A stretch of DNA of 64,000 bases from Halalkaliarchaeum sp. AArc-CO (GTDB lineage: Archaea; Halobacteriota; Halobacteria; Halobacteriales; Haloferacaceae), in the NCBI RefSeq assembly GCF_024972735.1, contig NZ_CP087723.1, positions 2,418,001 to 2,482,000 on the forward strand, given 5' to 3'. A program made the translations under genes and the position numbers. Numbering within the stretch: position 1 is the first letter of the stretch; every line of letters begins with the position of its first letter. Under the pieces are notes generated by a model. The model made no database searches. It had not been told where the DNA came from and saw only the letters and a list, made by a program, of their open reading frames with translations. Below are positions 40,603-41,415 of the stretch, piece after piece.

Positions 40603-40673
40603 GCGCTGGTAGTGTAGTGGTATCACGTGACCTTGCCATGGTCGCAACCGGGGTTCAAATCCCCGCCAGCGCA
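40603..40673 (+). tRNA. tRNA-Gly (GCC)
   Basis: A complete 71-nt cloverleaf can be drawn. The acceptor is GCGCTGG/CCAGCGC with discriminator A, and the D arm is GTG...CAC. The anticodon stem is TGACC/GGTCG with loop TTGCCAT and anticodon GCC. The T arm is CGGGG-TTCAAAT-CCCCG. No intron is present, and the CCA end is not encoded. Confidence 0.96.
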
Positions 40674-40678
40674 TTTTT
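40674..40678 (+). terminator. T-run after tRNA-Gly
   Basis: Five Ts directly follow the discriminator base, the usual archaeal signal for ending a tRNA transcript. Confidence 0.6.
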
Positions 40679-41305
40679 CCGAGGGAACCGAGGAAAATCG
40701 CGTAGCGGGATTTGAACCCTACCAGTCGCGCGCAGCGAACGGAGTGAGCGAGCACGTCTGGTTCCGGTTCAAATCCCCGCCAGCGCACTTCTCTCGATCA
40801 CAACACTGCGAGCGACTCGCGTCGCGATGTCGCGAGCAACACGTGATCGAGTGAATCGATATCTGCGAGGGATTTGAAGTAGACGAGTCGCAGCCCGGAA
40901 CGGCGAGCGCAGCGAGCCGCAAGCCCGGACCGTCTCGGCGTAGTTCAAATCCCCGCCAGCGCACTTCTCTCGATCACAACACTGCGAGCGACTCGCGTCG
41001 CGATGTCGCGAGCAACACGTGATCGAGTGAATCGATATCTGCGAGGGATTTGAACCCGGAGAGTCGCAGCCCGCGCAGCGACCGGAGGGAGCGAGCAGGA
41101 ACGTCTCTACTCGGTTCAAATCCCCGCCAGCGCACTTCTCTCGATCACAACACTGCGAGCGACTCGCGTCGCGATGTCGCGAGCAACACGTGATCGAGTG
41201 AATCGATATCTGCGAGGGATTTGAAGTAGACGAGTCGCAGCCCGCGCAGCGACCGGAGGGAGCGAGCAGGAACGTCTCTACTCGGTTCAAATCCCCGCCA
41301 GCGCA
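40679..41305. repeat. Tandem array carrying four copies of the tRNA-Gly 3' end
   Basis: The last 22 bases of the tRNA gene (GGTTCAAATCCCCGCCAGCGCA) recur at 40766-40787, 41113-41134 and 41284-41305, with 21 of the 22 at 40943-40963. TTC-to-TTC spacings are 176, 171 and 171 bp. A 91-bp block follows each of the first three copies and is identical in all (40788-40878, 40964-41054, 41135-41225). It holds the dyads CTCGATCAC/GTGATCGAG and TCGCGA-TG-TCGCGA and ends in GGGATTTGAA. That end is the inverse of the T-arm, so each variable 60-70 bp cassette is bracketed by inverted T-arm sequences. Frames on the minus strand across this region repeat because 171 is a multiple of three; they are not genes. 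Confidence 0.9.
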
Positions 41306-41415
41306 CATCTCTCGATCACAAAGTCACCCTCCAGGGGAGCACTGAAGTAACTGATATTGGTTAATTAATATAGTTACTACTAAGTATGTGTCCAGTAGTG
41401 GTTGTATCGTAGACG
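41306..41415 (+). promoter_or_regulatory. Promoter and candidate operator of the tungstate operon
   Basis: AGTAACT (41346-41352) and AGTTACT (41372-41378) are perfect inverted arms. Inside them ATATT and AATAT also pair, with a one-base bulge. The centre, GGTTAATTAATATA, includes the probable TATA box, so a bound protein would block transcription of tupA at 41416. The ModE-like protein encoded at the operon end is the obvious candidate. Confidence 0.55.

Follow-up and report, generated by a model that had tools for sequence, protein, structure and literature searches.

Tandem hairpin units with tRNA-derived ends form a class-wide repeat family behind haloarchaeal tRNA genes

Why would the end of a tRNA gene recur, at regular intervals, behind the gene itself? 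The usual interpretation of such repeats is that they are att scars. The array that follows tRNA-Gly(GCC) in the window, the whole 64,000-nucleotide stretch of Halalkaliarchaeum sp. AArc-CO DNA analyzed here, belongs instead to a structured, class-wide family. The anchoring tRNA (40603-40673, plus strand, as are all elements of the array; called by ARAGORN and matched by Rfam RF00005 at 63.1 bits) is intact, and its 3' end recurs four times, at 40766, 40942, 41113 and 41284, with spacings of 176, 171 and 171 bp, just as an earlier note based on the sequence had reported.

The array consists of four units built in one order: tRNA nt 52-73, a first hairpin (HP1), an inverted T-arm, a variable tip X, and the next nt 52-73. 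The first tRNA end lies within the gene as called (40652-40673). Unit 1 (40674-40765) continues with a 33-nt HP1 (40674-40706), an inverted T-arm complementary to tRNA nt 52-63 (40707-40718) and tip X1, whose fold is of the CCAG/CTGG type (40719-40765), and is followed by copy 1 of nt 52-73 (40766-40787). In unit 2, an 81-nt HP1 (40788-40868) leads to an inverted T-arm (40869-40880) ending in GAAGT, which pairs with the AGTTC of the next copy, and to tip X2, of the CGAG/CTCG type by BLAST and folding (40881-40941); copy 2 (40942-40963) carries A at nt 52 and so begins AGTTC rather than the GGTTC found elsewhere in the array. Unit 3 comprises HP1 (40964-41044), an inverted T-arm (41045-41056), tip X3, which folds as AGAG/CTCT (41057-41112), and copy 3 (41113-41134). 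Unit 4 has HP1 (41135-41215), an inverted T-arm like that of unit 2 (41216-41227) and a recombinant tip X4 (41228-41283), X2 on its left and X3 on its right, with a broken CGAG/CTCT helix, a combination found in this tip alone among the tip set. Copy 4 (41284-41305) ends the array and is followed by the 16-nt truncated start of another HP1 (41306-41321).

The HP1 of units 2, 3 and 4 is identical, and together with the core of the inverted arm it makes up the 91-bp block, an 81-nt hairpin plus GGGATTTGAA, that the earlier note had found unchanged after the first three downstream copies; it is indeed the same in all three. As the core of the system, however, this block is too narrow a choice: it is one local hairpin, whereas conservation resides in the T-arm dyad and its covarying tip. 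The 33-nt hairpin of unit 1, unlike the HP1 of units 2-4, had gone unnoticed, as had the recombinant fourth tip. The variable cassettes are bracketed by inverted and direct T-arms as described, although they measure 47, 61, 56 and 56 nt, not 60-70 bp. The 179-aa minus-strand ORF (40769-41308) merely follows the repeat period, of which it had rightly been called a by-product, and the units account more generally for spurious small 'WRGFEP/GGDLN' ORFs of this sort behind haloarchaeal tRNAs. In the array, the only credible Rfam match is the tRNA itself. BLAST within the organism's own genome gives E-values of 1e-56 to 3e-64 between units and, with the same organization seen at other tRNAs and in other genera, confirms that the array is real and beyond chance; that recurrence also argues against an assembly artefact.

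The array is one of many in this genome. With the neighborhoods of all Rfam-detected tRNAs examined, complete units lie at 18 of the 44 tRNA genes, roughly four in ten, for a total of 38, and remnants lie at a few further tRNAs; BLAST with a single unit likewise returns many matches adjoining other tRNA genes. Each unit repeats nt 52-73 of its own local tRNA, and the inverted T-arm tracks that sequence, as with GGGAATTG for the Gly(CCC) arm GGTTCAATTCCC. The units are gene-free, tandem and about 85-190 bp long, and every one is bounded by 22-nt direct repeats. Nearly all contain two hairpins: HP1, which begins immediately 3' of the discriminator base and in many folds has one extrahelical T in its stem, and a second hairpin (HP2), in which the inverted T-arm and the next T-arm enclose tip X. 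One-base shifts of the same type recur at different tRNAs: in several arrays (those of Asp, Pro, Phe and Thr) the final copy is frequently GTTCACAATCC or GTTCAATATCC.

What is conserved is a shape: a 12-bp T-arm helix, side loops of 3 and 4 nt, an NNAG/CTNN helix and GA/GNA-loop tips. At each of its two variable positions the NNAG/CTNN helix pairs in 73 of 74 distinct main-type tips, against a mean of 32 and a maximum of 45 in shuffles, and the side loops hold their lengths of 3 nt (64/74) and 4 nt (63/74). In a gap-free alignment of 36 units, 96.8% of the cells are paired and 109 have changed on both sides (33.7 in shuffles), and sliding the partners lowers pairing to 18-48%. Given this pairing, the fixed side loops and the covariation, selection on the structure, be it in RNA or in single-stranded DNA, is well supported. 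The structure also has a strand. Of the GA-NN-GNA-NN-GA tip motifs in the units, 146 are on the tRNA-sense strand and 10 on the antisense strand, and folding energies favor the tRNA-sense strand for HP1 (p = 1e-14) and HP2 (p = 0.03). Five of the 12 motif occurrences in the 64-kb window fall within the array, with 1.5 expected window-wide under simple shuffling. A further strand test comparing G.T and A.C mismatches was dropped, as the outer helix favors G.T and the inner 1x1 loops A.C; the latter excess is perhaps due to conserved C.A mismatches. At Leu(taa) of Halorubrum sodomense (L178), one tip is reversed relative to all others of its type, as expected from an inversion between the two T-arm arms.

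How far does the family extend? Among 194 Halobacteria genomes, 108, from 46 of 66 genera, contain the exact T-arm dyad pattern, and a reversed-pattern control gave zero matches in the same set. In a phylum-wide sample of 393 genomes the pattern occurs in Halobacteria only and is absent from the roughly 310 genomes outside this class. A scan of 84,980 species returned at least 119 loci; among the matches listed, 108 are haloarchaeal, and of 111 haloarchaeal hairpins, 97 are found no more than 1 kb 3' of a tRNA whose end matches. In Halobacteria, then, this is a real, structured and class-wide repeat family. Outside it, a Woesearchaeota tRNA-Ser (L162, 6317-6452) is followed by one unit of the same layout, with an exact 3'-end copy, a small hairpin, an inverted T-arm and a long hairpin. 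The same plan appears behind a Rhodospirillaceae tRNA-Pro, and an alphaproteobacterial metagenome-assembled genome carries, at tRNA-Pro(cgg) (L293, 1148-1740), a tandem 100-bp array on the T-arm dyad plan that is interrupted by an assembly gap. Pattern matches in Bifidobacterium, Streptomyces, Rhodococcus, Clostridia, Verrucomicrobia, Acidobacteria and Methanomassiliicoccales are without a tRNA array. Nine loci (L128-L132, L134, L135, L150 and L151) are perfect palindromes of a tRNA 3' half, on prophage-like bacterial contigs and in two Bifidobacterium genomes, and may mark att sites. Carriage by viruses was considered and rejected: none of the eight IMG/VR matches is recognizably haloarchaeal (seven are palindromes on prophage-like DNA and one lies in a tRNA cluster), 50,697 phage records gave zero matches, and the pattern matches include no haloarchaeal virus.

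Between species the arrays turn over. In two congeners (G028 and G032, in that order), Ser(tga) has five versus two units, Gly(gcc) four versus three tRNA-end copies, Arg(ccg) one versus no unit and Gly(ccc) none versus two, and at Ala(ggc) HP1 is kept with a different tip X between unchanged arms. The ortholog of the window array in a further genome (G001) has one T-arm unit against four, and the tRNA-proximal unit, unit 1 with its HP1, was not seen there. The earlier note had predicted arrays at further tRNA genes and differences in copy number, and both are borne out, the first in this genome and in other genera alike; the outcomes that it had set against its own reading (a block found only here, a fixed copy number, an artefact of assembly) are excluded. 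Its interpretation is supported in part: the inheritance of whole units, the tip swaps and the recombinant unit 4 show behavior of both the insertion and the conversion kind, two of the processes it had offered.

Co-inheritance of parts can be read from positions at which T copies differ. At nt 57, all 14 informative inverted arms agree with the T at the start of their own unit; only two arrays (L165 and L096) are reciprocal at this position, so the independent events are few, and some of the 'own' matches may reflect drift in the next copy. At nt 52 the inverted arm mostly matches the following copy (14 versus 2), and over nt 54-63 as a whole own matches outnumber next matches by 56 to 25 (p = 0.0008), without being unanimous. 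Together, nt 57 and nt 52 place the junction between these two positions, and the matches at nt 57 point to a heritable unit that runs from T to X and is joined near G53/T54. The target, too, depends on G52-G53: units occur on 46 of 96 tRNAs with GG at nt 52-53 and on 0 of 10 without it (p = 0.005). Internal copies are better preserved than last copies (p = 0.003). Tips are common to different tRNA genes and the tRNA-derived frame stays local, with local acceptor copies in 171 of 196 hairpins and one possible foreign acceptor end (L196). Circles hopping between different tRNAs were accordingly rejected as the main route, and movement between tRNAs would not proceed by simple cassette hopping.

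Other elements share these sites. A second hairpin class, with 14 candidate elements, uses the acceptor stem as its arm (L031, L010, L063, L096, L145 and, in G001, L296); a few candidates, such as L143, overlap the T-arm class. It is present at Arg(gcg), which lacks GG at nt 52-53 and where the T-arm class is absent, and it bears the tip motif on the antisense strand (9 versus 1). A transcript from the tRNA promoter could not contain the folded strand of this class, which weighs towards a role at the DNA level. Larger insertions are also found. A 55-kb island with a tyrosine integrase (G032, 1166485 to 1221366; L100, L089) sits between tRNA-Arg(tcg) and its hairpin unit and has a core repeat of about 14 nt (13-15) of the acceptor end. 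Two toxin-antitoxin pairs lie between copies of tRNA 3' ends: a vapBC-like pair with a PIN domain toxin at Glu(ctc) (L087, 1849-2603), whose segment repeats the whole T-arm end and lacks a hairpin unit on the distal side, and a mazEF-like pair at Val(cac) (L086, 3601-4242), whose segment has a short acceptor core at its boundary. We considered these pairs as cassette cargo and rejected this, because the right junctions of the mazEF segment and of the island are 13-15-nt acceptor cores; the vapBC and mazEF segments are therefore treated as separate integrative elements.

For the anatomy, the covariation, the dependence on G52-G53, the turnover between species and the co-inheritance of T and inverted arm observed here, the best-supported reading, which we put forward tentatively, is that the units are small non-coding hairpin cassettes, anchored on the T-arm and turning over by recombination there. 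One cassette would comprise TTCRAATCC...N73, HP1, the inverted T-arm, X and GG, its end (inverted T-arm, X and next T-arm) folding into the conserved stem, and the form active in recombination would be the single-stranded fold of the tRNA-sense strand. With joining between GG and TTC in the T-arm (nt 53/54), each newly proximal cassette would give the tRNA gene an intact 3' end, pushing older ends downstream to decay. Arrays would also change by tandem duplication, by loss, by exchange of whole units between lineages and by the swapping of tips through short T-arm matches. We infer that an enzyme acts on the cassettes. Tyrosine recombinases are encoded in all six array-bearing genomes checked, and among the ORFs compared a single recombinase family is common to the six; its best match is archaeal XerA, with a score under the equivalog cut-off. 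This XerA-like protein is a candidate by sequence for acting on the arrays, and it may instead only resolve chromosome dimers.

The main rival, a real possibility if a less probable one, places the function in RNA. The units would be transcribed with the tRNA as structured trailers and processed to small RNAs whose 3' ends resemble those of tRNAs; the hairpins would be maintained by selection on the fold of the RNA, and homologous recombination would alter their number. The better folding of the tRNA-sense strand, the sense bias of the tip motif and the strong covariation fit such a role, as does the start of the units right after the discriminator base, the position at which RNase Z cuts, and the E. 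coli RtT array has the same layout. Covariation, however, cannot tell RNA from single-stranded DNA, the presence, number and tip sequence of units vary freely between congeners, and the antisense motif of the acceptor-based class lies beyond the reach of the tRNA promoter. Palindromes might also evolve with no enzyme at all, which we regard as unlikely: replication slippage and template switching at T-arm microhomologies would give rise to duplicated units and swapped tips and would correct palindromes that are imperfect, as the recombinant unit 4, the truncated units at array ends, the tip swap between identical arms at Ala(ggc) and the recurrence of the topology in unrelated lineages, without a known shared enzyme, would suggest. 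Such events leave unexplained the dependence on G52-G53, the constant 3- and 4-nt side loops with their covarying helix, and the class-wide tip families.

Mobile elements of known kinds fare less well. It is very improbable that the units are miniature elements of the IS200/IS605 type (PATE- or REP-like), moved by a Y1 transposase able to recognize the hairpins and to target tRNA ends, even though Y1_Tnp proteins are found in six of six array-bearing genomes (one to four in each), many HP1 stems contain the single extrahelical T, and haloarchaeal PATEs bear near-terminal palindromes (PMC3119063). Elements of this type insert without target duplication (PMC3119063), yet the 22-nt direct repeat bounds every unit; no copies with a transposase gene were seen among the units, and the position is tied to a tRNA in 97 of the 111 haloarchaeal hairpins among the matches listed. 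We give least weight of all, next to none, to the units being ordinary leftovers of tRNA-targeting integrative elements with SNJ2-type integrases. Such elements do insert at the same tRNAs, as the island and the vapBC and mazEF segments illustrate, but the repeat of the island and of mazEF is the short acceptor core, free of inverted T-arm and hairpin; the units are small, gene-free and tandem, whereas an integrative element carries an integrase inside and an att site at each end; and the phage and virus searches above returned no haloarchaeal match.

The open literature searched yielded no description of the family, and Rfam has no entry for it; it is a widespread repeat system, apparently new to description. 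If it acts at the DNA level, it would be a gene-free cassette system anchored on essential tRNA genes; if it acts at the RNA level, it would be a large unannotated set of trailer RNAs in an experimentally tractable group. Integrons offer one comparison. Their arrays comprise an attI site, attC sites with a GTTRRRY/RYYYAAC core, and the integrase IntI. Like them, the haloarchaeal arrays hold tandem cassettes at a fixed anchor, each with a folded site made of an outer arm, an unpaired spacer, an inner arm and a variable tip, an inverse arm complementary to the start of its own cassette (the 14 of 14 matches at nt 57) and a junction next to G/TT. Unlike them, they use the T-arm GGTTCRAATCC/GGATTYGAACC in place of the attC core, the tRNA itself as anchor, with many anchors per genome, and the tRNA-sense strand as the favored strand, and the hairpin units are without cargo genes. 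The shared tyrosine recombinase, the one family scored, reaches 19.9 bits on the integrase_gron model against a cut-off of 265. Membership among integrons was dropped on these grounds: IntI not found, the wrong core and no cargo. A broader proposal, which we consider doubtful, is a gene-free and platform-free integron-like system in which tRNA T-arms would be the insertion sites, single-stranded hairpins the substrates and a conserved chromosomal XerA-like recombinase the enzyme that shuffles them in trans, the same plan having arisen or spread in Halobacteria, a Woesearchaeote, Alphaproteobacteria and at E. coli tyrT. Integrons have been reported in nine archaeal phyla, in a text that mentions neither haloarchaea nor tRNA (PMC9668308).

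Among haloarchaeal repeats, the PATEs and SMRs of Haloquadratum are likewise short, non-coding, palindromic and mobile, but have IS605-related ends and no target duplication and are not described as anchored on tRNAs (PMC3119063). The closest remark found in the open literature concerns Haloferax gibbonsii, in which partial tRNAs may sit directly beside a full copy, there unrecognized as hairpin units or arrays (PMC7921747). The att repeats of large elements are a class apart from the hairpin units.

The nearest known relative is the repeat array at E. coli tyrT/tyrV, the source of RtT RNA (RF00391). The tyrT repeats have long been described and yield rtT RNA, although a search of the open literature returned no paper on them. 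As in the haloarchaeal units, the array is tandem and follows a tRNA gene, whose final 19 nt recur with a spacing of 178 bp, and each unit contains an inverted piece of the tRNA end (GGGGAAGGAT) together with structured sequence. The Rfam model finds three RtT copies in K-12, and one to four are annotated in other complete E. coli genomes. The differences are also clear. The E. coli array is found at one locus, in enterobacteria; its direct repeat begins inside the T-loop, whereas haloarchaeal units begin at nt 52; it lacks the covarying NNAG/CTNN tip on a 12-bp T-arm helix; and its sequence is unrelated, the RF00391 covariance model giving no match in the window array at E-values up to 5. What the two have in common is the arrangement itself, in which a tRNA is followed by tandem copies of its own 3' end, and the haloarchaeal arrays also bring comparative evidence to a long-standing puzzle, that of the E. 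coli tyrT repeats.
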